Assembly (NCBI RefSeq): GCF_026651855.1
Contig: NZ_CP093280.1
Span: 3,760,001-3,824,000 of the forward strand
Direction: 5' to 3'
DNA: 64,000 bases
From: Pseudomonas silvicola
GTDB lineage: Bacteria; Pseudomonadota; Gammaproteobacteria; Pseudomonadales; Pseudomonadaceae
Shown here: piece by piece, positions 28,065 to 55,909 of the stretch
Numbering within the stretch: the stretch's first letter is position 1
Layout of the letters: each line of letters begins with the position of its first letter
Position numbers and translations under genes: made by a program
The notes under the pieces: model-generated
What the model was told of the DNA's origin: nothing
The model's database searches: none
Seen by the model: the letters and a program-made list of their open reading frames with translations, nothing else

Positions 28065-28160
28065 TGGGCGCCTCCTTTGGGTTATCGTCGTCATGCTCTC
28101 CTATTAACCGACCGCCATCGTCGCCGGGGATTCAATCGGATTCCAACACCGCCAGATGCG

Positions 28161-29069
28161 TTACTGCTCGCCCCCCACCGGTTGGCGCGCCACTTTCGTG
28201 GTGCACAACTTCACCCCGCTTGCCGCCAGCAGCACGCCGGCCCAGGCCAGCAGAGGCATCGGCTCGTGGAGCACGCACAGCGCAAACAGCGCCGCGCAAG
28301 GTGGCACCAGAAAGAACACCGCTGACACCTTGGCCGCTTCGTTGCGGCGCACCATCAACATCAGCAATGCCACGGCCAGCAGTGAGTTGCACAGCCCCAG
28401 GTAACCCAGTGCGCCGAGCAGCGCCCCGTTCAACTCCAGCCGAGGTACCTCGGCCACCAGCACCAAAGGCCCGACCACCACCAGCCCCATCACGTACTGC
28501 ACGGCCAATGAAACCAGCACCGGCTGCGGGGGCAGGGTTTTCTCCAGCAACACGGCGCCGGTAAGGCCAAGCAGTGAGATCACCGCCAGGCCCAGGCCCA
28601 GCGCCGTGAAGGTTTCCACCCGCGACTTGCTGAGGATGACCACGATCGCCCCCAGGAAGCCCAGCAACAGCCCCAGCCACTGAAGACGGGCAACGGGGGT
28701 ACGCAGCACGATGGGCGATGCCACACCCACCAGCACCGGCTGCATCGACACAATCAGTGCCAGCAGCCCCGCCGATATCCCGGCGCTGATCGCCAGGTAG
28801 GTACCGGCGAAATACACGCATTGCATCAACAACCCCGAGACGATGAGGCCCAGCCACTGGCGGCCTTTTGGCAACGGGGGGCGTTGAATCAGTATCAGGG
28901 GGGTCAACACCAGTACCACCAGGGCATAGCGTAGCCACAGGAACAGCAGGGGGCTGCTGTACGTCAGGCCCACTTTGACGATGGCGAATCCTGAGGACCA
29001 CAGGATCAGGAATGCGGTACAGATCAGAATGTCCGCGCGTTTATTCAGAATTTCCAGATACCTGGCCAA
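28161..29069 (-). CDS. EamA/DMT-family exporter of the NRPS locus
   Basis: 302 aa with ten predicted membrane segments in two EamA repeats (ILWSSGFAIVKVGLTYSSP; SLLGLTGAVLLEKTLPPQPV). The start is TTG at 29069 with GAGGAA 6 bp upstream; no in-frame ATG exists nearby. Family members export amino acids and metabolites, as in threonine or O-acetylserine exporters. It is last in the minus-strand set NRPS-SDR-oxygenase-exporter and could export the product or confer self-resistance. Confidence 0.8.
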   Translation of the reverse strand: MARYLEILNKRADILICTAFLILWSSGFAIVKVGLTYSSPLLFLWLRYALVVLVLTPLILIQRPPLPKGRQWLGLIVSGLLMQCVYFAGTYLAISAGISAGLLALIVSMQPVLVGVASPIVLRTPVARLQWLGLLLGFLGAIVVILSKSRVETFTALGLGLAVISLLGLTGAVLLEKTLPPQPVLVSLAVQYVMGLVVVGPLVLVAEVPRLELNGALLGALGYLGLCNSLLAVALLMLMVRRNEAAKVSAVFFLVPPCAALFALCVLHEPMPLLAWAGVLLAASGVKLCTTKVARQPVGGEQ

Positions 29070-29146
29070 TGAGTTTCCTCGATGTTCAACCGTTACCCCG
29101 GGCCCAGTGGCGCCCCCGGCGCAGGGGGCGCCCCGGTAGCGCCGGG

Positions 29147-29962
29147 TCAGCTCCAGTAAGTCAGCGGGCGCTCGCTCCCATAGCAGCCAATGAAGGCGGC
29201 CATGCCGATACGGTAGCTTTCATCGCTGGGTGTCACGGCGTGCAGCATTCTGGAACTGAATATGATCAGGTCGCCTGCGTCAGGATGGATCACCAATGGC
29301 GCCGCTTCCACCTCTGTCGGCAGCAAGCCTTCGACGTCTCTGATTTTCACCATTTCGTCGGCGGTCGGGTCGCGCAACCAGAGTTGCAGGTCGCCACCTT
29401 TGCTGGGCGTGCGCAAGTACATGTTGGCGACCATTTGCTCCTCGATGCCCTGGAGTTCAGGGGCATCCGACTCTTCGATGATGGTGTCGTTATGCGGGAA
29501 AAAGCGTGACGAGGCCGGTTTGAATACGCGGATCGCACCCACGAAACAGCTATGGCCGTGCAAGCGTTGAATGTTGGCGCCGGCGGGCCAGAACTCTTGA
29601 AGGTTCAGGCGGATTTTGTCGGCGGGTGTCAGGTGTGGCGAAAACAGGCTGCGCAAGTCATGAATGTTTTCCACCGCTTCATCGTGATATTTGCGGGCTG
29701 CCACCGGGTCCCATTCGGAGTCGATGTGCGGGGTGCAGATCCGGCCCACGCTGCTGGTGTATTTTTTATTGTAATGGCCCAGTTTCGGGTGGTCGATGCA
29801 TCGCGCGGCGGCGGCGTCAGCCACGTCAACGGGGTAATAGCCCTTGACATGGATTGCGCCGATTTCGCGCGCCGCCAAGGCCAGTAGCGTGTCGGTTGTC
29901 AGCTCGGTGGCCACCACGGCAGGGGCGACAGCTCGTCTTGGGGCTTTTACCTGAACGTTCAT
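29147..29962 (-). CDS. Fe(II)/2-oxoglutarate oxygenase, WelO5-like but with HxD triad
   Basis: 271 aa from the ATG at 29962 (AAGGA 6 bp before it; the ATG at 29968 is too close). Likely iron ligands are H157 and D159 (FFPHNDTIIEES) and H241 (RMLHAVTPSDESYRIG), with R251 for 2-oxoglutarate. The C-terminal end PLTYWS and overall plan resemble the WelO5 halogenase group. WelO5 has Gly where this protein has Asp, so hydroxylation or desaturation is expected here, not halogenation. In a one-module NRPS locus it probably modifies the tethered amino acid or the released product. Soluble. Confidence 0.78.
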   Translation of the reverse strand: MNVQVKAPRRAVAPAVVATELTTDTLLALAAREIGAIHVKGYYPVDVADAAAARCIDHPKLGHYNKKYTSSVGRICTPHIDSEWDPVAARKYHDEAVENIHDLRSLFSPHLTPADKIRLNLQEFWPAGANIQRLHGHSCFVGAIRVFKPASSRFFPHNDTIIEESDAPELQGIEEQMVANMYLRTPSKGGDLQLWLRDPTADEMVKIRDVEGLLPTEVEAAPLVIHPDAGDLIIFSSRMLHAVTPSDESYRIGMAAFIGCYGSERPLTYWS

Positions 29963-29998
29963 CTTCATTCCTTGTTTGAGAGGCTGCGGTTGTCGAAA

Positions 29999-30751
29999 TC
30001 AGACCTTCTGGCGCGTGGGACGCAGCCGGATGTCGTCTACGTGAACATGGGGCGGCTGCTCGAGCACAAAACGAATGCAACGGGCGACGTCGGACGCACT
30101 CAGGAACGGGCCTTGGTCGCGTTCCAATTGGTTGAACGCTTGCATGTCGTACCCTGCCGATTCCTGGAAACCACTTCGTACGAACCCCGGCTCAACCAAG
30201 GTGACGCGAATCAGCTGGCTAGCCAGTTCCTGGCGCAGGGATTCCACCAGCGAATGCAGGGCGAATTTGGTGGCGCCGTAGACCGGGTTGCCGGCAGACA
30301 ACACCCGGCCGACCGTGGACCCGATCACGACGATATCGCGCACGGTTTCGCCATCCCCGCCCTGGTTGCGCAGCGCCGTGGCCGCAGCGCGCAGTTGCTG
30401 CATTGCAGCGAGAAGGTTGACCGTGAGCAGTTCGTCCCACTGTTGGTGATCAGAGGTCAGTAGCGACCCGGGCAACCCGCGTCCCGCGCACAATACAAAG
30501 GCACTGGGCAGGCTGCCGAAGGCACGTTCGCTGGCTTGCCAAAGCTGCTCCACGTGAGTTGGTTCGCGGGCGTCGGCGGCCAGGCCGATGATGTCGCCCG
30601 GGTGTGGGGCAGCGCTGCACACTTCCTCGAGGCGGCTTTTATCGCGGCCGCTGATGGCCACGTGAACGCCGGCCTGCGCCAGGTCCAGGGCCACGGCTCG
30701 GCCAATGCCGGAGGTGCCGCCTGATACAACAACGGTTCGGTGGTTCAACAT
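29999..30751 (-). CDS. SDR-family oxidoreductase of the NRPS locus (1)
   Basis: 250 aa. Cofactor motif VVVSGGTSGIGRAVA, catalytic YGATK after VIGSTVGRV. An N-terminal basic pair (SGRDKSR) suggests NADPH. The ATG overlaps the end of the NRPS gene by 7 bp, so translation is coupled. It may reduce the aldehyde released by the NRPS reductase domain or oxidise a hydroxyl added by the oxygenase. Confidence 0.85.
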   Translation of the reverse strand: MLNHRTVVVSGGTSGIGRAVALDLAQAGVHVAISGRDKSRLEEVCSAAPHPGDIIGLAADAREPTHVEQLWQASERAFGSLPSAFVLCAGRGLPGSLLTSDHQQWDELLTVNLLAAMQQLRAAATALRNQGGDGETVRDIVVIGSTVGRVLSAGNPVYGATKFALHSLVESLRQELASQLIRVTLVEPGFVRSGFQESAGYDMQAFNQLERDQGPFLSASDVARCIRFVLEQPPHVHVDDIRLRPTRQKV

Positions 30752-33700
30752 TGAGGCTGACTCCTGTTTTTAGACGATGCGGTGCGTTCCATCGGGGTGG
30801 CCTGCCGGAACAGGCCAAGGTCATCCAGGCGCCGTACGAAATGATCGACCCAGGTACTGGACAGTTGCGGAAACTCAATGCCGTATGTACGTAAGCGCGC
30901 CAGGGTCCTGGAGTGGTCATAGGTCACGTTGCGCGGCTCGCGTGAGGCCCAGAACATGCCGAGTGCAACCGGTGCCAGGGCGGTCTTTCCCGAACGCTCG
31001 AGCGCGGCCTGAAGGCCGTCGGCGTCGATGCGTCGGACTGGAATGTCGAGTTGTTGTAGAGCCTGTACGAACTGGTTCGCGGAGACCGTGAAAGGGGAGT
31101 CCACGTGATAGGTGCCGGCCGGCAGCATCGGGTCCAGCGAGAGCGCGACGATGCCTTGGGCAACCGTGTCGATCGGGCTCAGCACCAGCGGCTCGTCATA
31201 AGACAGTGGGGCTGTTCCCGCATGGGCGATCGCGCTGATGCACTGCACCCAACGGTTGGCGTCGGCGTTGCGTTGGAACAGGGCCGTCTGCGAATGGCCC
31301 GTCACGTTCCCGGAGCGATAGATGAACGCGCTGTGCCCACGGTAGGCCAGTTCTCGTACCACGCCTTCGGCCATGAACTTGCTGCGTTCGTACTCGTTGA
31401 GAAAGCTCTGGCCTACATCCAGCGCGTCTTCGTCGAACCGCACCGGGCCATCGCCCCGGTAGCAACCCCCTACCGCCAGGGTCGACATGAAATGCAGTGA
31501 TTTGCCCCGGCCTGTTTCCAGCAGCCGCACGAGTTCATGGGTGGGGCCGACGATGCTACGTTGCATATCGGCGCGGCTGCCGACCAGGCGGGTATCGGCG
31601 GCAAAGTGGTACACGCTGTCCACCCTGGCAGCGAGTTGATCCCATTCGCCTTGAGCCAAGCCGAACCCGAGTTGGCAAACGTCGCCAACCAGCACGTTGA
31701 CGCGTGTGCTGGACAGTGCGGGTGTGTCGTCCTTGAAGTAATAGGCCCAGGTGTCGGCGAGCCGTTGCCAGGCCATGGCGGGGGATCCAGCGCGTACCAG
31801 GCAGTGGATAGTTGCCTGACTGTGGCTCAAGAGTTCGCGCAGCACATGTACGCCCAGAAACCCGGTGGCGCCAGTCAGGAATAGGCAACTGGGTGCTGGG
31901 CGGGCCCGGGCGTCTTCTTGTGTGCGCTTATGCATGAGCACTTGCCTGGGAATATTCCACAAGGCGCCGGAAGAGCTATGGGGGCTCAGATAGCAAGGGT
32001 GAGGGTTGGCTGCTTCACCTAGCAGGGCAGTGCGAAAATCTTGCACGAAATGTTGCATGTGGGCGCTGGACGTTGCCCGGCCATTGAAGTTGAGGTCCAG
32101 CACCAGTTGGTCTTCAACCAGCCGCCCCGTCAGTTTGAACTGGTTGACCCGGTGGTTTTCCTGCCCTCGTACCCCTTCGTAGGTCACGAGGGCTGGCCGT
32201 AGCTTCAGGTCGTCACGCAGGCCCAGGCGGGCTCTGCCCAGGTAGTTGAAGCAATAACGGGTGGCCAGAGGGGGCAAACCCGACAGGGCGTGGGAATGCC
32301 CAAGGTCGGGGATTTCACGCAGCGCTTGTTCGATGACCTGGGCAGGTGTGTCCAGCAGGTCAACGGCGTTCAGGACAACAGGGAACGCCGCGGTGAACCA
32401 CCCCACGGTCCTGGATACGTCGACATCATCGTTCAAGCTCAGCCGGCCGTGACTCTCGATGGTCACCCCCACCGTCGGCTCTGGCCAATGGCGGTTGGCA
32501 ACCTGCAGGTAAGTACCCATAAGGTATCGATCAATGGGCACACCGGTAGCCGTCGCGTTCTCGAGAATGGTCGACGTCTGGGCAGGTGTGAAAGCGATCC
32601 ATGCCGTTTGCGCGTCGTTTTCAGTTCCCGCCTCGAAGGAGGGCGAACATGCGTCCGGTAGGCGTTGCCGCCACCACGCCGAGTCTGAGGCCCAGCGTGG
32701 CCCTTCCTGATGAAGGTGCCTAACCCAGCGGTCATAGGTTCGCGCACGCAGTGGCGTGGCGTTGGCTGGATGGGTGTAATGTACTGTCAGCTCATCCAGT
32801 ATCAGCCCCCACGACACCACATCAACTACCAGGTGATGGGCCACGGCCAATAAATACTGGTGTCCGCCTGCCTCGATGAGTTCCAGGAAAAACAGGCGGC
32901 CGGTACTGATATTGAGGTTCTGCTCAAGGGCCGTGTAACGCCCATTGAGCAGGGTGTCCAGGTCTGACACAGCGCCTGTTTCAACATGGGAAAACGCAGT
33001 CGCATAAGTGTCGGTTGCCTCAAACACCCACTGTTCCGTGGCGTGATCAAAGTGGAAACGAGAGCGAAGCAGGGGGTGCCTCTGCAGCACCTGCGCGGTG
33101 GCTTCGCGCAAGCGGTCAGCATTCAAGGCAACCCCTGCCTCGATAAACATCGACTGGCTCCAGCGGTTAGGCTCTCGGAAGTCCTGCTGCAAAAACCACG
33201 CTTGCGCAGGTCCGGCAGCGCAGGGCCCCTCGACTGCGTCGTGGTGCTGGGCGGGTGAGCAGGGCCGTTCCCGGTCTAGCTGGGCAAACAGCCCCTCCAG
33301 CGTAGGGGCGCTCAGGAATGCCCGTGCGGTCACATCGAAACCATCCAGCTGCAATTCCGAGATGAGCCGCACGGCATCGAGGGAGTCACCACCCATGTCA
33401 AAAAAATTGCTCGTGGTGCCGACGTTTGCCGTTCTGCAGTGGCGCTGAAATTTTGCTCTGATCTTGTCCTCAGGCGTGGCTGTTTCAGCGTGCTCAACCA
33501 CGACGTCACCGAGGTCGTCGGCGAAGCGCTTTATCAGCTCCACTGACACGGCAGAGCGGTCAAGCTTGCCGTTGGCATTCATCGGCAGCAGGGGAAGCAG
33601 GTAAAAACTGAATGGAATCATATGTGGGGGGAGATGCTGGGCCAGGCGCGTACGAAGTTCGGGCGCGCTCCTCGAAAGGCCTTCACAGGCGCACAGCAGG

Positions 33701-35010
33701 TAATCGCGATCGTCGAAACGGTGGTGCACCACCACTGCCCTGGTGTCGAGCGCGCTCAGCAGTACTGCTTCTATATGGCTGAGCTCCACGCGGTAGCCAT
33801 TGACTTTGACCTGCAGGTCGCCGCGCCCCATGAAGCGCAGATGGCCATCGCTGTCCAGTACCACCCGGTCACCGGTACGGTAATACCGCATGCCCGCTAT
33901 GTTCAAGAAACGGCCTTGGTTCAACTCAGGACGTTTCCAGTAACCGATGGCGACTTGTGGCCCGCCGATGAATAGTTCGCCCGTCTGTTCTGGTGCGCAG
34001 AGGTTTCCCTCAGGGTCGACAACCCTGAAGTGGGTACCACCCAGTGCTTTTCCGATAGGTACGCTGCGCTCATCCGCGCCCGCGGAGCCCTGTTCCACCA
34101 CGGGGTAGATGCTGACGCCCACGGTGGTTTCCGTTGGACCGTAGTGGTTGATCAGCCTCGCTGTAGCGCCGCTGGCCAGTGTTGCCTGGGCCAGTGAGGA
34201 TTCCAGCGCCTCGCCGCCCAGCAGGAGCCAGCCAAGCGCCGGGCGCCGGCCGGGGCTGGCAGGAATCTGTGCAAGCACGGTTCGCCACTGGGTCGGTGTG
34301 ATTTTCAGCACGTCAATGTCCCGCTCCATGAGCAGGCGATACAACGCTTGTGGGTCTTTGCGTTCGGCCTCGTCGGCAATGTATAAACTGCCCCCTGTCC
34401 AGAGCATCAGAAACAACCCCGTGTTACCCAGGTCTGCCGCGAATGTACTGACATGCGCATAGCTGAGCCCTGGGGGAATGGCCAGGGCCTGCGCGAGGCT
34501 TTGGCAATAGTGAGCAATATTGCCGTGAGAGACAGCCACGCCTTTGGGCTCGCCGGTGGAGCCTGAGGTATACAGCACATAAGCGGCGGCCTCTGGGCCG
34601 CCTGCATCACGCGTAACCCCTGTCCCGGGCTGGCCGTTGCCGGCCAGGCTATAGGTGAGGGCGTTGGCGCATGTGGGGGCGAAACCGCCTGTAGCGATGA
34701 CGAGGTCGGGCTGGATCTGGGCAAGCCGGTCACTGGCGTCAAACGGCAGGCCTGGTACTTCGACGATGGTGTACGCGGCCCCACTGAGCATGACGCCGAC
34801 CAGTGCTATCACGGTCTCGACATTGCGCGGGCCGATGACGGCGATCAACTGACCGGTTCCCATTCCACGGTTGCCAATGCACGTTGCGAGATGCCGTGCC
34901 TCATGCCCTAGAACGCCCCAGCTTATTTCGCAATGGGCGTCATGCAGCGCACGCTGGGACGGTTGGCAGTCAAACCAGGTGGTCAACCGTGAAATAAGAA
35001 GTTCCGACAT
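30745..35010 (-). CDS. Single-module NRPS: adenylation, carrier, epimerization, thioester reductase
   Basis: 1421 aa. A domain about 1-495 (A3 motif YTSGSTGEPKG at 147-157; A10 NGKLDR at 480-485). Carrier about 510-585 with S543 in GGDSLDAV. Epimerization-type domain about 600-1030 (HHLVVDVVSW at 725-734; FNYLG at 921-925). Thioester reductase about 1040-1400 (GATGFLG at 1047-1053; Y1207, K1211). There is no condensation domain for chain growth. Aligning by hand to GrsA gives the specificity code D-L-T-K-L-G-H-V-G-K, close to Asp and Asn codes. Expected output: an amino acid loaded, possibly epimerised, then released as an aldehyde or alcohol. AAGGAAG precedes the ATG. Confidence 0.85.
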   Translation of the reverse strand: MSELLISRLTTWFDCQPSQRALHDAHCEISWGVLGHEARHLATCIGNRGMGTGQLIAVIGPRNVETVIALVGVMLSGAAYTIVEVPGLPFDASDRLAQIQPDLVIATGGFAPTCANALTYSLAGNGQPGTGVTRDAGGPEAAAYVLYTSGSTGEPKGVAVSHGNIAHYCQSLAQALAIPPGLSYAHVSTFAADLGNTGLFLMLWTGGSLYIADEAERKDPQALYRLLMERDIDVLKITPTQWRTVLAQIPASPGRRPALGWLLLGGEALESSLAQATLASGATARLINHYGPTETTVGVSIYPVVEQGSAGADERSVPIGKALGGTHFRVVDPEGNLCAPEQTGELFIGGPQVAIGYWKRPELNQGRFLNIAGMRYYRTGDRVVLDSDGHLRFMGRGDLQVKVNGYRVELSHIEAVLLSALDTRAVVVHHRFDDRDYLLCACEGLSRSAPELRTRLAQHLPPHMIPFSFYLLPLLPMNANGKLDRSAVSVELIKRFADDLGDVVVEHAETATPEDKIRAKFQRHCRTANVGTTSNFFDMGGDSLDAVRLISELQLDGFDVTARAFLSAPTLEGLFAQLDRERPCSPAQHHDAVEGPCAAGPAQAWFLQQDFREPNRWSQSMFIEAGVALNADRLREATAQVLQRHPLLRSRFHFDHATEQWVFEATDTYATAFSHVETGAVSDLDTLLNGRYTALEQNLNISTGRLFFLELIEAGGHQYLLAVAHHLVVDVVSWGLILDELTVHYTHPANATPLRARTYDRWVRHLHQEGPRWASDSAWWRQRLPDACSPSFEAGTENDAQTAWIAFTPAQTSTILENATATGVPIDRYLMGTYLQVANRHWPEPTVGVTIESHGRLSLNDDVDVSRTVGWFTAAFPVVLNAVDLLDTPAQVIEQALREIPDLGHSHALSGLPPLATRYCFNYLGRARLGLRDDLKLRPALVTYEGVRGQENHRVNQFKLTGRLVEDQLVLDLNFNGRATSSAHMQHFVQDFRTALLGEAANPHPCYLSPHSSSGALWNIPRQVLMHKRTQEDARARPAPSCLFLTGATGFLGVHVLRELLSHSQATIHCLVRAGSPAMAWQRLADTWAYYFKDDTPALSSTRVNVLVGDVCQLGFGLAQGEWDQLAARVDSVYHFAADTRLVGSRADMQRSIVGPTHELVRLLETGRGKSLHFMSTLAVGGCYRGDGPVRFDEDALDVGQSFLNEYERSKFMAEGVVRELAYRGHSAFIYRSGNVTGHSQTALFQRNADANRWVQCISAIAHAGTAPLSYDEPLVLSPIDTVAQGIVALSLDPMLPAGTYHVDSPFTVSANQFVQALQQLDIPVRRIDADGLQAALERSGKTALAPVALGMFWASREPRNVTYDHSRTLARLRTYGIEFPQLSSTWVDHFVRRLDDLGLFRQATPMERTASSKNRSQPQC

Positions 35011-35117
35011 ATTACTTCCTTTTAATATTTATTCTCCAAGGCGTTGTCACATTAAAGCCGTGCATCACCCTGTGGGGATGACACACTAAGCATCACTTTT
35101 TGAATGGTCCAATATCG

Positions 35118-35134
35118 CTGAAATATAGTTTCAG
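35118..35134. promoter_or_regulatory. Perfect inverted repeat in the NRPS/SDR divergent promoter
   Basis: CTGAAA-TATAG-TTTCAG lies in the AT-rich 217-bp space between the divergent NRPS and SDR genes. It is a plausible operator for the LysR regulator at the end of the locus, although the spacing is not the strict T-N11-A form. Confidence 0.5.
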
Positions 35135-35227
35135 ACGGCTTGTATATAGTTGTGTATCGCGTTGACAGGGTATGGGTCGCTCCCTTATAAGAGCGTTGTA
35201 TGTGCATCAGCCAGAAAGAGGATTTTC

Positions 35228-35971
35228 ATGGGACTTGCGTTGGTAACAGGCGGTAGTCGTGGCATTGGCGCTGCCATTGCGCGCGCCTTGGCGGCGAACG
35301 GTTACGGGGTGGTGTTGACCTATGAAAAAAATGCGCTGGCGGCCCACGCACTAGTTGATGAAATTATTGCAAACGGGGGTACAGCGCAGGCCGTACAACT
35401 TGATATTTCTCGCGAGGCGGCCATTGTCGACTTGTTCCGTCTGCTCGATGAATATGCCATGCCGCTGAGTGTGCTGGTCAACAATGCCGGTGTTACCGGC
35501 GGGTTCAGTCGTCTGGACGCATTAACGCTTGAACAATTGCACCGCGTGTTTGAGGTCAACGTATTTGGGGCTTTTCTCTGCGCCCGTGAGGCAGTGCGGC
35601 GAATGGGGCGTGAATCGGGTGGCGAAGGTGGAGTCATCATCAACATCTCATCCCGCGCGGCGCAGTTGGGGGGTGGTGGCGAATGGATTCATTACGCGGC
35701 CTCCAAAGGAGCGCTGGATAGCCTCACGGTGGGCCTGGCCAAAGAAGTGGCCGCGCAGGGGATTCGGGTCAATGGTGTAGCGCCTGGCATCATCGACACC
35801 GACTTGCATGCTGACGCGGGAAAGCCTGACCGAGCAGAGCAATTGGGCGCATCGGTGCCGTTGGCCAGGCCCGGGCAACCCGCCGAGGTTGCCGACTGCG
35901 TTGTGTGGCTGGCGTCAGCCGCGGCAGCCTATGTCACGGGGGCGATCATTCCTGTAGCGGGCGGACGCTAG
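35228..35971 (+). CDS. SDR-family oxidoreductase of the NRPS locus (2), FabG-like
   Basis: 247 aa from the ATG at 35228 (AGAGG upstream; the frame extends further up without SDR features). LVTGGSRGIGAAIA, VNNAGVTGG, then catalytic serine (INISSRAAQL) and YAASK, as in 3-oxoacyl-ACP-reductase-like SDRs. The codon usage and base composition look more AT-rich than the neighbours to the left. Divergent from the NRPS and convergent with the LysR gene, overlapping it by 4 bp. Confidence 0.85.
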   Translation: MGLALVTGGSRGIGAAIARALAANGYGVVLTYEKNALAAHALVDEIIANGGTAQAVQLDISREAAIVDLFRLLDEYAMPLSVLVNNAGVTGGFSRLDALTLEQLHRVFEVNVFGAFLCAREAVRRMGRESGGEGGVIINISSRAAQLGGGGEWIHYAASKGALDSLTVGLAKEVAAQGIRVNGVAPGIIDTDLHADAGKPDRAEQLGASVPLARPGQPAEVADCVVWLASAAAAYVTGAIIPVAGGR

Positions 35972-36927
35972 GCGCTGGGTACGGTAACCGTCAAATCCAG
36001 CATGGGTAGCAGATTGTGCACCGCCGCCATGCTGTTTTCTTCCAGCCAGGCAACGCTCATGGGGGAGCACAGGAGGTCGCCCTCTATCGGAATGAAGGCA
36101 ATGCCTTGGCGAGGTTCCGCACCCACGCTCTGTGGGACAAAGGTCAAGCCGACGCCGGCGCGGGTCAGCCCGAGTGCCGCCTGAAGGTTCTCCACCTGCT
36201 GGACAATGTCCAATCTGATGGTGGCAGCTTCCAGGGTGTTCAGAATCAGATCCGTCAGGCTTGGCAGGGGGTAGCGTGGGTACAGAACCGTCTTTTGGCC
36301 ATCTAGGTTGGCCAGGGTAATGCACGTGCGGGTAGCCAGAGGGTGGGCGCTTGGCAGGGCGACGACCAACGGTTCGTTCAGCAATAATTTTTGCTGCAGC
36401 GCGGGCGTTTCATTGATGGGCGGGCGAGAGAAACCGATATCGATCGTACGGGCCATGAGCGCCGATGCGATGTCGGCGGCCAACAATTCCTTGAACGTCA
36501 ACTCCACGGCGGGGTAACACTGCTGGAACATGCCCAGGATTTCGGGAAGTTTGTTGTACATGGCTGAGCCGGCGAAGCCTATCGCCAGGCGACCCTGTTT
36601 GCCTTCGGCGATACCTTTGATATCGCGAACGCTGCTGGTGATATCGCTCAGGATGAGGTTGACCCGCAGCAGAAACTGTTCGCCCGCCTCGGTGAGCCGC
36701 AGTGGGCGGGTATGACGTTCGAGCAAGGTAACGCCCAGCTCACTTTCCAGTTGCATGATCTGCTGGCTGAGCGGGGGTTGAGCCATATGCAGCTTTTCCG
36801 CGGCGCGAGTGAAATTGAGTTCTTCGGCAACGGCCTTGAAATAACGTAGGTGGCGCAGTTCCAACCGGTGTTCGCAGTCGGATGGCAAGAGGGAAGGGCT
36901 AGCGGCTTTGGGGTACAGGGCAGGCAT
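35968..36927 (-). CDS. LysR-family regulator of the NRPS locus
   Basis: 319 aa. Winged HTH about residues 22-82 (LRHLRYFKAVAEELNFTRAAEKLHMAQPPLSQQI), effector domain after residue 105 (RLAIGFAGSAMYNKLPEIL). It resembles the BenM/CatR-type LysR group. The start at 36927 has only a weak ribosome site, so the true start could be slightly later, near the ELRHLRYF segment. It closes the biosynthetic locus and overlaps the FabG-like SDR by 4 bp at the 3' ends. Its operator may be the dyad at 35118-35134. Confidence 0.85.
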   Translation of the reverse strand: MPALYPKAASPSLLPSDCEHRLELRHLRYFKAVAEELNFTRAAEKLHMAQPPLSQQIMQLESELGVTLLERHTRPLRLTEAGEQFLLRVNLILSDITSSVRDIKGIAEGKQGRLAIGFAGSAMYNKLPEILGMFQQCYPAVELTFKELLAADIASALMARTIDIGFSRPPINETPALQQKLLLNEPLVVALPSAHPLATRTCITLANLDGQKTVLYPRYPLPSLTDLILNTLEAATIRLDIVQQVENLQAALGLTRAGVGLTFVPQSVGAEPRQGIAFIPIEGDLLCSPMSVAWLEENSMAAVHNLLPMLDLTVTVPSA

Positions 36928-37199
36928 GAAGAAACAGTCCTTGTATTATTTGTATTCGGCTACAACGGCAATGCTAGAGGGCGTGCAGATCAATTCGTGG
37001 GCGAACGTCAGGCATACGGTCATGCGAATGTACGCTGCTGTCCAACGTCTGGCCATCCAGGCGGCTGGCAATGCCTCGCTTTCGCAGCCCTGCGGCGAAA
37101 GACTGAACGCCTGTCGCGCACGGGTCTCGAATCCAGTAGTGCCGCCATGGCCGGTCAAACCCGATCAGCCAGCGGCCCCTGAATGCTGGAGTGTTGACC

Positions 37200-37874
37200 A
37201 TGCAGTTGGAAACGTCATTCATCTTCGACCTCGACGGCACGCTGACCGACAGCGTTTACCAGAACGTGGCCGCCTGGAAAGAAGCCCTGGACGCCGAGAA
37301 CATCCCGCTGGCGATGTGGCGCATCCACCGAAAAATCGGTATGAGCGGGGGGTTGATGTTGAAGTCCTTGTGCCGCGAGACGGGCCTTGAGATCGACGAT
37401 GCCCAGGCCAAACGCCTGAGCGAACATCATGCCAAAGCCTACGAGCGGCTGCAGGGCCAGATCATTGCGCTGCCTGGGGCCGTCGAGTTGCTGCACGCGC
37501 TTGACCAGGGTGGGTTCAAATGGTGCATCGCCACCAGCGGCGGCAGTGATACGGCCCACATCAACCTCAAGGCACTGGGGCTGGGCCTGGACGAGGTCAC
37601 GCTGATCACCCGTGATGAGGTGAAATACGGCAAGCCGGACCCGGCGCTTTTCCGCACCGCCGCTGACCGAATGGGTGTGCCGATCGAGCAATGCCTGGTG
37701 GTGGGCGATGCTATCTGGGACATGCTGGCGGCCCGGCGTTGCAAGGCCACCGGTATTGGCGTGCTTTCGGGTGGCTATGACATCTCGGAGCTAGAGCGCG
37801 CCGGGGCGTTGCGGGTGTATGAAGATGCGCTGGATGTGCTCAACCACCTGGAAGAAGTGGCATCGCGCCCCTAG
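37200..37874 (+). CDS. HAD-family phosphatase (phosphoglycolate-phosphatase-like)
   Basis: 224 aa from the ATG at 37200, with GGAG 8 bp upstream; a GTG at 37191 overlaps that site. HAD motifs: FDLDGTLTDS (nucleophile and acid/base Asp), CIATSGG (motif II), KYGKPDP (Lys) and VVGDAIWDM (acidic motif). A helical cap domain lies between motifs I and II. Substrates in this group are small phosphate esters, often sugar phosphates. The stop codon sits in the loop of a terminator-like hairpin. Confidence 0.85.
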   Translation: MQLETSFIFDLDGTLTDSVYQNVAAWKEALDAENIPLAMWRIHRKIGMSGGLMLKSLCRETGLEIDDAQAKRLSEHHAKAYERLQGQIIALPGAVELLHALDQGGFKWCIATSGGSDTAHINLKALGLGLDEVTLITRDEVKYGKPDPALFRTAADRMGVPIEQCLVVGDAIWDMLAARRCKATGIGVLSGGYDISELERAGALRVYEDALDVLNHLEEVASRP

Positions 37875-53710: not shown

Positions 53711-55852
53711 TCAGCACAGGCAGAACAACGCCACCTGCGGCGCGTCGCTGATCCACTGATGGCAGATTCGCCAACCGCCCAGCGCCGCCATTTCAGTGAA
53801 CGATTCAACCGTGAACTTGTGCGAGTTCTCGGTGTGCAGGCGCTCGCCTTCAGCGAAATGGAACGCTTGGCCGGCCACCTGCACCACCTGTTCGCGCTGG
53901 CTCACCAGATGCATTTCCATGCGTTGCAGCTCGGCATTCCATTGCGCCAGATGGCGGAAGCCATCCAGGTCGAAATCGCCGTCCAGTTCGCGGTTCATGC
54001 GCTTGAGCAGGTTGAGGTTGAACGCCGCCGTCACCCCACCCGCATCGTCGTAGGCCGCTTCCAGCAAGGCGGCTTCCTTGACCATGTCCACGCCGACGAT
54101 GAAATAGGCATTGCGGCCCAGCAAGGTATGCGCCGAACGCAGAAACTGCACGGCCTGGGGGCGGGTGAAATTGCCAATGGTAGAACCCGGGAAGAAGCCC
54201 ACCCGAGGCTTGCCTCGGGCCGCTTCAGGCAGGCGCAGGGCGCGCGTGAAGTCGTCCACCTGGGGGGCGATTTCAAGGTTCGGGTAATGCGCGTGCAACC
54301 GGCTGGCGGCGCTATCCAGTGCGTCCTGGCAGATATCGATTGGCACATAGACGCCCACCTGGGGCGCCGCGTCCAGCACCAGGCGGGTCTTGTCGCTGGC
54401 CCCGCTGCCAAATTCCACCAGCACCGCGCCGTCGGGAATCACGGCGCCGATCTCGGCCGCCACGTTCGTCAACAGCCGGGTCTCGGCGCGGGTCGGGTAA
54501 TACTCCGGCGTGGTGCAGATAGCTTCGAACAACTGCGAGCCGGCACCGTCGTAAAAGTACTTGGGCGACAGCGACTTGTGGGGCGCTGACAGCCCGGCCA
54601 CCACGTCGCGGGCAAATTCGCTGCTGTACGCACCGTGCTGGCAGATGTCCCGGGCCAGGCGCACGCCGGAGAACATCCAGCGCAGGCCCGGGGTAAAGAA
54701 GTTACGGTAGCTGGGCCGGCAGTGATCTGGCGAGCTGATGCTGGCGCCGCCGCGCAGCACCATCTGGTTGACCATGAACTTGCCGTTGTACTCGCCCACC
54801 GCCGAGGGCGCCGGACGGAAACCGGGGTAGGGGCTGTAGGCACTCTGGGTCCACTGCCAGGCCACGTCGTCCACCTGTTCGAGCAAGCCACTGACCGCGG
54901 CCAGTTCCCACTCCGCTTCAGTGGGCAACCGCGCCTGGGCCCAGGTGGCGAAGGCGCAGGCCTCGTAATAGCTGACGTGGGTCACAGGCGCATCGGCCTC
55001 CACGGGCACCAGCCCGGCCAGGGTCATGACTTGCCACTGCTCACCGTCCTGCTGCCAGTACAACGGCGCCTGCCAACCCTGTTCCCGTACCATGGCCCAA
55101 CCATCGGACAGCCACAGGCCGGCGGTGGCATAACCGCCGGCGGCCATGAATTGCAACCACTGGCCGTTGGTCACCAGACGGTCGCTGATCTCGAACGGCG
55201 CCAGGTAGACCTTGTGCCGTGGGCCTTCGTTGTCGAAGGCAAAGCCATCGCCGTCGTGGCCAACGTCCACCAGGCCGCCGTTCAGCGCCTTGAAGCGGCC
55301 TTCGCGGCCGGGTGCATCGGCGGGCCAGGCCGTGTCGTAGGCGGGCTTGAGCGCAGACAGGCTGAACAGGTGCAGGATGTCCATCAGTAGCAGTTCCTGG
55401 TGCTGTTGTTCATGGGCCAGGCCGAGTTCGATCAGGGCCAGGGTCGCGGCATCCAGGTCCTGGGCCAGCAGGCTGCCCATGTGCAGGTCCACGTATTGCC
55501 GGTAGGCCATCACTTGCTCAAGCGCTGGCCGGGTCATCAGCCCACGCTGCGGCCTGGGCTGGCGTGGGCCCACGGCCTCGTAATAGGAGTTGAAGAGATA
55601 AGTGAAACTGGGGTCGAACGGCCGGTAATCCGCCAGGTTGGGCACCAGCAGAAAGGTTTCGAAAAACCAGGTGATGTGCGCCAGGTGCCATTTGGTCGGG
55701 CTGGCGTCCGGCATCGACTGCACCACCATGTCCTCGGGGCTCAGGGGGCTGGCCAGCCGTTCACTGTGGCGGCGCACCTGGCGGTAGCGCTGCAGGCGCT
55801 CGTCGGCGAGGGTAGGCAGGGTGTCGAGGGCATGACGTGGCATCAGGTTCAT
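53711..55852 (-). CDS. Fused EgtB-EgtD ergothioneine biosynthesis enzyme
   Basis: 713 aa from the ATG at 55852 (GGAG about 9 bp upstream). N-terminal EgtB: DinB-type helical domain with iron-ligand histidines (HLAHITWFFE; HEQQHQELL, the HxxxH pair) and a formylglycine-type sulfoxide synthase fold to about residue 400 (SDRLVTNGQWL, RLPTEAEWE, MVLRGGAS). C-terminal EgtD from about 408: KSLSPKYFYDGAGSQLFE, LVEFGSGASDKT, GSTIGNFTR, VTAAFNLNLLKRMNRELD. It should trimethylate histidine and then couple hercynine to cysteine or gamma-glutamylcysteine. The C-terminal domain is clearly EgtD, which excludes OvoA. Confidence 0.9.
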   Translation of the reverse strand: MNLMPRHALDTLPTLADERLQRYRQVRRHSERLASPLSPEDMVVQSMPDASPTKWHLAHITWFFETFLLVPNLADYRPFDPSFTYLFNSYYEAVGPRQPRPQRGLMTRPALEQVMAYRQYVDLHMGSLLAQDLDAATLALIELGLAHEQQHQELLLMDILHLFSLSALKPAYDTAWPADAPGREGRFKALNGGLVDVGHDGDGFAFDNEGPRHKVYLAPFEISDRLVTNGQWLQFMAAGGYATAGLWLSDGWAMVREQGWQAPLYWQQDGEQWQVMTLAGLVPVEADAPVTHVSYYEACAFATWAQARLPTEAEWELAAVSGLLEQVDDVAWQWTQSAYSPYPGFRPAPSAVGEYNGKFMVNQMVLRGGASISSPDHCRPSYRNFFTPGLRWMFSGVRLARDICQHGAYSSEFARDVVAGLSAPHKSLSPKYFYDGAGSQLFEAICTTPEYYPTRAETRLLTNVAAEIGAVIPDGAVLVEFGSGASDKTRLVLDAAPQVGVYVPIDICQDALDSAASRLHAHYPNLEIAPQVDDFTRALRLPEAARGKPRVGFFPGSTIGNFTRPQAVQFLRSAHTLLGRNAYFIVGVDMVKEAALLEAAYDDAGGVTAAFNLNLLKRMNRELDGDFDLDGFRHLAQWNAELQRMEMHLVSQREQVVQVAGQAFHFAEGERLHTENSHKFTVESFTEMAALGGWRICHQWISDAPQVALFCLC

Positions 55853-55909
55853 CAGCAATGGCTCCGCGGCTGCGTCGTTAAGCGACGTTAGTTAGCGAGA
55901 TGTGCGGCC

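Follow-up and report, generated by a model that had tools for sequence, protein, structure and literature searches.

A one-module peptide synthetase with an epimerisation domain, an aspartate-type pocket and a TniO-family reductase partner in Pseudomonas silvicola: a candidate source of C1-reduced D-aspartate

One-module reductive peptide synthetases of the A-T-R type load one amino acid and release it through a reductase (R) domain, without a condensation domain. A passage of PMC7586950 describes such an enzyme, ATRed of Xenorhabdus, and also names A-T-R synthetases in connection with chloramphenicol, Pseudomonas virulence factors and Aspergillus piperazines. We analysed a related locus in a 64,000-nucleotide stretch of the Pseudomonas silvicola chromosome (NZ_CP093280.1, positions 3,760,001 to 3,824,000; hereafter the window). 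The synthetase encoded there differs from the A-T-R enzymes in an epimerisation (E) domain between T and R, an aspartate-like pocket, and a TniO-family SDR and an Fe/2OG oxygenase as partners. A first, sequence-only reading had stated that no described product was known for exactly this set of genes; in agreement, our searches of the literature found no described cluster or product with it. Beyond that reading, our analysis adds a predicted aspartate pocket in the window and six relatives, the pairing with a TniO-family SDR, and an oxygenase that retains an HxD metal site.

The open reading frame check placed all genes where the sequence-only reading had put them, and profile searches confirmed the two SDRs, the EamA protein and the LysR protein that it had named. 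The locus comprises the following features.

28161–29069, minus strand: predicted EamA exporter (Pfam profile)
29147–29968, minus strand: Fe(II)/2-oxoglutarate oxygenase, H159-x-D161...H243...R253 (profile and residue check)
29999–30751, minus strand: SDR1, SDR_TniO_fam (NF038213 profile)
30745–35010, minus strand: A-T-E-R NRPS, 1421 aa (open reading frame, domain profiles and motifs)
35011–35227, no strand: putative divergent promoter region, between the NRPS and SDR2 genes
35228–35971, plus strand: SDR2 (profile; start set by eye at the ATG of 35228 instead of 35150)
35968–36927, minus strand: LysR-type regulator, tail-to-tail with SDR2 (profile; same arrangement in stretch L032 of P. piscis)

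The SDR1 gene begins before the NRPS gene ends, and the two share 7 bases at this ATG and stop. All six genes were found in identical order in Pseudomonas piscis, with identities of 60.8–82.3%; because of this recurrence, the set is no chance neighbourhood. An HAD phosphatase gene at 37191–37874 was considered as a further member and left out, as it was absent from the P. piscis set when read by eye; in a search of 24 genomes at E 1e-50, a set that took in its own genome and did not list P. piscis, only its own had a match. The LysR-type regulator presumably binds in the 35011–35227 region, which contains GTCCAATATCG at 35107–35117, identical in P. piscis, and a 6-base inverted repeat (CTGAAA-TATAG-TTTCAG, 35118–35134) that is not conserved there. 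The locus had been described as lying on more AT-rich DNA; the direction held, and the size of the difference is modest (GC of the cluster genes 0.589–0.641 vs 0.631 for the window; GC3 0.617–0.815 vs 0.785–0.881 in the six neighbouring genes computed). A megablast search of 28100–37000 against plasmids gave no match.

The A-T-E-R architecture proposed earlier was borne out by profiles and intact motifs, with the domains arranged on the NRPS gene as follows.

33541–34974, minus strand: adenylation domain, residues 13–490 (profiles; pocket DLTKLGHVGK, aspartate-like)
33289–33465, minus strand: carrier (T) domain, residues 516–574, GGDSL (profile and motif)
32002–33216, minus strand: epimerisation domain, residues 599–1003 (profile, motifs and tree)
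30814–31881, minus strand: thioester reductase domain, residues about 1044–1399, Y1207 and K1211 intact (profile and motifs)

Pfam scores were 193 bits for AMP-binding, 38 for PP-binding, 116.4 for the Condensation superfamily and 156.7 for NAD_binding_4, and the thioester reductase model TIGR01746 scored 216.8 bits (cut-off 213.35). The motifs A3, A10 Lys, GGDSL, HHLVVDVVSW, ESHGR, RTVGWFT, FNYLG, TGATGFLG, STLAV and YxxxK were all present. The A, T and R motifs are thus intact as in one-module reductive synthetases; a plain A-T-R enzyme has nothing between T and R, whereas here the E domain occupies residues 599–1003, and we therefore regard the NRPS as a variant of the A-T-R type. A protein of Nostoc UHCC 0926 was rejected as the plain one-module form, since its open frame carries about 470 extra residues before the A domain.

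Two findings had been named as overturning the proposal: a characterised cluster with the same genes, which our literature searches did not find, and a condensation domain of a known pathway in place of the E-like domain. In the single condensation-superfamily domain, the E-domain motifs HHxxVDxxSW, E-x-HGR and FNYLG were all found. A tree built from 19 domain entries grouped it (support 1.000) with the other A-T-E-R enzymes and with two canonical E domains encoded by the same genome, apart from the 11 C entries; two of the C domains enter twice, through overlapping stretches. H725, H726, D730, W734, E852, H854, G855 and R856 were invariant in six sequences, window included, as were the key R-domain residues. 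The domain of the Rhizobium leguminosarum A-T-E-R enzyme likewise has the motifs and tree position of an E domain. The E-associated model TIGR01720 scored 20.5 bits on the window domain, below its cut-off of 74.2, and the E1 motif pattern had no match in the row of the Pseudomonadales MAG and no more than a loose one in L030 and L031. Judged by motifs and tree, the domain is an epimerisation domain, so that the NRPS has no condensation domain, as first stated. A one-module synthetase with reductive release and its own partner genes is hence supported at the level of sequence.

Pocket residues were taken from an alignment to GrsA, in which the typed GrsA segment was identical to 1amu. The window pocket, DLTKLGHVGK, is identical in P. 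piscis; P. tumuqii, G137 and the MAG (L033) have DLTKVGHVGK, and reading the motifs of P. phymatum and R. leguminosarum gave Asp-type pockets there too. The reference code for aspartate we take to be DLTKVGHIGK. The window pocket is, by this code, of the Asp type, and it may also be compatible with 3-hydroxy-aspartate. The six relatives with Asp-type pockets are spread over Pseudomonas, a Pseudomonadales MAG and two plasmids, one of Paraburkholderia and one of Rhizobium; together with the window, these gave the seven loci compared.

SDR1 matched NF038213 (SDR_TniO_fam) over its whole profile (1–249 of 249) with 330.7 bits, above the curated cut-off of 300. In an alignment of four sequences, S145, Y158 and K162 of SDR1 were invariant. 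Four members above the cut-off were found (330.7, 336.1, 367.1 and 319.4 bits). Each lies next to or near an Asp-type A-T-E-R gene, so that the two genes adjoin or nearly adjoin in four of the seven loci; in R. leguminosarum they are 1.8 kb apart, with one SDR gene between. Three weaker matches (294.3, 182.6 and 179.7 bits) had no Asp-type A-T-E-R gene in the 20–35 kb read around them, and TniO-like SDRs in G821, G170 and G151 were rejected as sister loci, since none of the stretches read there contains an A-T-E-R gene. The NRPS and SDR1 are a core pair of a family present in other genera. The curated name suggests that a relative has already been named; literature searches found neither TniO as a gene name nor the cluster that gave it.

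Sister loci have other partners. P. tumuqii, G137 and the MAG share the set aminomutase–AurF–A-T-E-R–PhyH; their A-T-E-R enzymes are homologous to that of the window (37.3, 35.7 and 34.0% identity), whereas the TniO SDR, EamA and the WelO5-like oxygenase are absent (E 1e-8, stretches read). The aminomutase homologue of the P. tumuqii type scored 451.3 bits against PRK00062, glutamate-1-semialdehyde aminomutase (cut-off 398), and 421.1 bits against hemL, short of the stricter cut-off of 527.3. The glutamate-1-semialdehyde aminomutase family acts on a 1-semialdehyde, which would fit a product of this kind from the Asp-type A-T-E-R enzyme paired with it. The P. phymatum locus encodes a MATE pump and a D-Ala-D-Ala ligase that is divergent (147.4 bits against a cut-off of 245.65), and that of R. 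leguminosarum a TPP enzyme and further NRPS genes.

Two loci carry serine-related genes. In P. piscis, a second SerB (174.6 bits, cut-off 144.15; 41% identical to the other SerB of P. piscis) lies between the oxygenase and EamA genes on the same strand, and in R. leguminosarum, a SerS gene (368.7 bits, cut-off 301.65) follows 300 bases behind the A-T-E-R gene. Neither homologue was found in the stretches read of the other five (window, P. tumuqii, G137, MAG and P. phymatum), and the window genome has one SerB match only.

Combining domain anatomy, pocket code, gene-set conservation, TniO pairing and the SerB and SerS of these two loci, we tentatively favour the following pathway. The synthetase would adenylate L-aspartate and load it on its own carrier domain, the E domain would convert it to D-aspartyl-S-T, and the R domain would release D-aspartate 1-semialdehyde (3-amino-4-oxobutanoate) with NAD(P)H. 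SDR1 would reduce the semialdehyde, or handle the R-domain product, to give (R)-3-amino-4-hydroxybutanoate. The Fe/2OG enzyme and SDR2 may oxidise this further, perhaps by C2 hydroxylation, EamA would export the product, and transcription from the divergent promoter would be under the LysR protein. Such a product would be serine-shaped (beta3-homoserine) and may act as a small serine antimetabolite. Since C1 reduction makes the CH2OH arm and leaves the side-chain CH2COOH as the acid, the geometry of L-serine would arise from D-aspartate only, which would explain the E domain.

The oxygenase bears on two other readings. It matched Pfam WelO5 marginally (28.4 bits, gathering cut-off 27) and the HilA profile with 19.9 bits (cut-off 500), and these weak matches are its likeness to stand-alone enzymes such as BesD, WelO5 and HilA. 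In WelO5-type halogenases the metal-binding Asp is replaced by Gly or Ala, whereas the window enzyme retains Asp161 (H159-N-D161). A WelO5-type halogenase is therefore unlikely and a hydroxylase more likely; the earlier label of a WelO5-like oxygenase stands as a profile match and not as a prediction of halogenation, and a chlorinated product seems scarcely credible. A phmmer search against solved structures found no relative at E 0.1, and an AlphaFold2 model from a two-row alignment was discarded (mean pLDDT 32.8). The same genome also encodes a second oxygenase, 33% identical (stretch L073). The HxD site would also suit an enzyme that acts first, making 3-hydroxy-aspartate for the A domain and hence 3-hydroxy-aspartal, and the oxygenase is the best conserved gene of the set relative to P. 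piscis (82.3%, against 60.8% for the NRPS). However, this oxygenase is missing from the stretches read in relatives whose pocket is of this kind, and we consider this order of events improbable.

The amino aldehyde might instead leave the R domain and dimerise to a dihydropyrazine or pyrazine, as with ATRed, which in the passage of PMC7586950 turns phenylalanine into a pyrazine. A flat pyrazine loses the stereocentre and would leave the conserved E domain without a function, which we count in favour of a chiral product; the overlap of the SDR and NRPS genes also speaks against this route, to which we give little credence. A real possibility is that the locus does yield D-aspartate 1-semialdehyde or the alcohol, but as a building block or signal unrelated to serine, SerB and SerS being coincidental or biosynthetic (e.g. 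for phosphate removal). Their absence from five of the seven loci, window included, and the unrelated partners of the sister loci (aminomutase and AurF; Ddl and MATE; TPP enzyme and NRPSs) are consistent with this, whereas it is contradicted by the fact that two of the four TniO-type loci carry a serine gene, a different one in each, on the A-T-E-R strand and near the core genes. The serine link is post hoc, and the Rhizobium SerS may go with the further NRPS genes of that locus. It also leaves the Ddl-like ligase and MATE pump of P. phymatum unexplained, and the P. tumuqii-type loci keep the E domain without the TniO SDR or any hint of a serine-like product.

Extended to the family, the serine reading, which we still prefer for the window, would mean that C1-reduced D-aspartate is made by clusters that are scattered over Pseudomonas, Paraburkholderia and Rhizobium and probably mobile, that their E domain serves to make the reduced product a geometric copy of L-serine, that the products are antimetabolites of the (R)-3-amino-4-hydroxybutanoate type, and that a spare SerB or SerS guards some producers; taken as a whole, this is less likely than not. 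If true, each domain of this one enzyme would have a chemical purpose in turning a cheap amino acid into a chiral amino alcohol or aldehyde, and the family would combine it with a number of exchangeable tailoring sets (oxygenase; aminomutase and N-oxygenase; ATP-grasp ligase). The product of the window locus would then be a possible new serine antimetabolite.

Searches with Pfam and NCBIfam recovered the entire set of genes proposed in the sequence-only reading (an A-T-E-R NRPS, an Fe/2OG oxygenase, two SDRs, an EamA exporter, and a LysR regulator). The genome carrying the window comprises 8.65 Mb in three contigs (99.99% complete, 8.04% contaminated). The features are as follows.

28161-36927: six-gene cluster; minus-strand EamA exporter, Fe/2OG oxygenase, SDR1, and NRPS genes, plus-strand SDR2, LysR gene tail-to-tail with SDR2
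30745-35010 (-): NRPS, 1421 aa
35107-35134: 11-base block identical in P. piscis, with an adjoining inverted repeat
37191-37874: HAD phosphatase gene, divergent from the LysR gene

The NRPS stop and the SDR1 start overlap by seven bases; a 217-base region separates the NRPS from SDR2, which is read in the opposite direction. The block and inverted repeat in this divergent region are a candidate LysR site. A search of 24 genomes at E 1e-50 found the HAD phosphatase in the own genome only; the gene may have joined the cluster locally. Elsewhere in the window, a single 598-aa protein encoded at 23437-25233 matches carbon-nitrogen hydrolase (nitrilase) over two stretches; its gene lies beside that of a permease-like membrane protein. 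The 715-aa protein at 53711-55858 looks, from its motifs as read by eye, like a fusion of an EgtB-like part with an EgtD-like methyltransferase.

Pfam and NCBIfam models assigned A, T, C-superfamily, and R domains to the NRPS. The catalytic motifs looked for were present, and the key residues were invariant in six sequences including that of the window. The C-superfamily domain bears HHLVVDVVSW, ESHGR, RTVGWFT, and FNYLG. A tree built from 19 domain entries placed it, with support 1.000, beside the other A-T-E-R enzymes and two canonical E domains from the same genome, and apart from 11 C entries, which include two duplicate pairs from overlapping stretches. Counting against this placement, TIGR01720 scored only 20.5 bits, below the cut-off of 74.2; hence, this E domain is divergent. 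The absence of a condensation domain, as claimed earlier, is therefore upheld by motifs and tree, with TIGR01720 below its cut-off.

The A-domain pocket was DLTKLGHVGK in alignment with GrsA, whose segment was checked against 1amu. This is close to the Asp code DLTKVGHIGK. The same pocket was observed in P. piscis, and DLTKVGHVGK in P. tumuqii, G137, and a Pseudomonadales MAG; motif reading, rather than a clean alignment, gave DLTKFGHIGK in P. phymatum and DLTKLGHIGK in R. leguminosarum. The view of a one-module reductive NRPS was supported, and the pocket code narrowed its predicted substrate to aspartate.

The oxygenase had been called WelO5-like. The WelO5 match exists, though it is marginal, and the site is intact: H159-N-D161, H243, and R253 are in place, and H-x-D is kept in 20 of 21 aligned proteins (locus L027 is the exception). 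Relatives, mostly at ~32-37% identity, occur independently of the cluster; of 59 genomes in the genus, 19 gave a match, the own genome among them. From its sequence, the enzyme is more likely a hydroxylase or other oxygenase than a halogenase.

The same six-gene order was identified in P. piscis (identities: EamA 66.1%, oxygenase 82.3%, SDR1 70.5%, NRPS 60.8%, SDR2 67.5%, LysR 69.5%), with one additional gene, serB, between oxygenase and EamA; the flanking genes, judged by eye, differ. SDR1 belongs to NCBIfam SDR_TniO_fam, for which scores over the cut-off were obtained in the window (330.7), P. piscis (336.1), P. phymatum (367.1), and R. leguminosarum (319.4). The SDR adjoins the A-T-E-R gene in the first three and lies 1.8 kb away in R. 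leguminosarum, with another SDR gene in between. TniO matches occurred in 1/229 class, 4/398 genus, and 2/259 phylum genomes, and exceeded the cut-off in one, two, and one, respectively, own genome included each time. Around the weaker members (genomes G821, G170, and G151), no A-T-E-R synthetase was present in the 20-35 kb read. The TniO name suggests that curators knew some relative.

At the set thresholds, the NRPS matched 4 of 398 genus genomes (own included), 1 of 94 P. piscis relatives (P. piscis itself), and only its own genome among 144 relatives and 194 order genomes; these genome sets overlap. A six-row profile matched 10 of 195 phylum genomes and covered all four domains in the own genome only, the other nine matching roughly the A-T-E part within longer synthetases. 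A genome-contig scan, based on two short peptide patterns that further loci may escape, yielded whole-length matches in 3 of 31 loci (P. piscis, P. tumuqii, and the MAG). Among 2340 matching plasmid records, a single place covered 80% of the query in five. Two of these are A-T-E-R enzymes (P. phymatum pBPHY02, 45%; R. leguminosarum p3, 28%), and two are known from feature tables alone; that of Nostoc UHCC 0926 was rejected as not of plain one-module form, its N-terminus being longer. Separately, the own genome has four consecutive AMP-binding-like matches at G000:C1:7064116-7070700, three with identical scores spaced 1977 bases, explained either by tandem repetition or by an artefact of assembly.

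Other cluster types surround related enzymes. P. tumuqii (L034:7574-20309), G137 (L063), and the MAG (L033) share a glutamate-1-semialdehyde aminomutase homologue, an AurF-like N-oxygenase, the A-T-E-R enzyme, a PhyH-like oxygenase, a TauE permease, and a homologue of glutamate racemase, the last incomplete in the MAG; the stretches read lack the TniO SDR. This is possibly an aspartate version of C5 aminolevulinate logic. On pBPHY02 (L074:11444-20052), a divergent D-Ala-D-Ala ligase (Ddl), which may be biosynthetic or protective, and a MATE pump lie upstream of the A-T-E-R and TniO SDR genes. In the larger p3 cluster (L075:2640-26137), the A-T-E-R gene is surrounded by genes for two further NRPSs, a PPTase, SerS, a TPP enzyme, and oxygenases of the TauD and cupin types.

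Searches of the open-access literature turned up no described cluster with these genes. In the portions consulted, PMC7586950 reports Xenorhabdus indica ATRed, a minimal A-T-R enzyme that makes a pyrazine, and cites other A-T-R systems, whereas the window enzyme is A-T-E-R; those of PMC8949500 and PMC12403116 describe no A-T-E-R enzyme of this kind.

Judged from domains and pocket, D-aspartate 1-semialdehyde or the corresponding alcohol is the likely core product. Reduction at C1 would convert that carboxyl to CH2OH and leave the side-chain CH2COOH. Viewed from the H side, CH2COOH, CH2OH, and NH2 of reduced D-Asp would then follow the order of COOH, CH2OH, and NH2 in L-serine, and reduced L-Asp would give the mirror image. 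Because of this substituent order, D- rather than L-aspartate would give a serine-shaped (R)-3-amino-4-hydroxybutanoate. Spare copies of genes such as serB or serS are a known form of self-protection. A serine-shaped product agrees with the presence of an additional SerB at the P. piscis locus and of SerS behind the R. leguminosarum A-T-E-R gene; however, both are absent from the stretches read in the other five of seven loci, window included, and P. phymatum has Ddl and the MATE pump instead, which counts against the link. A serine-mimic function of the product is plausible, the connection to SerB and SerS being post hoc, and the window NRPS is a variant of the one-module reductive NRPS not described before.
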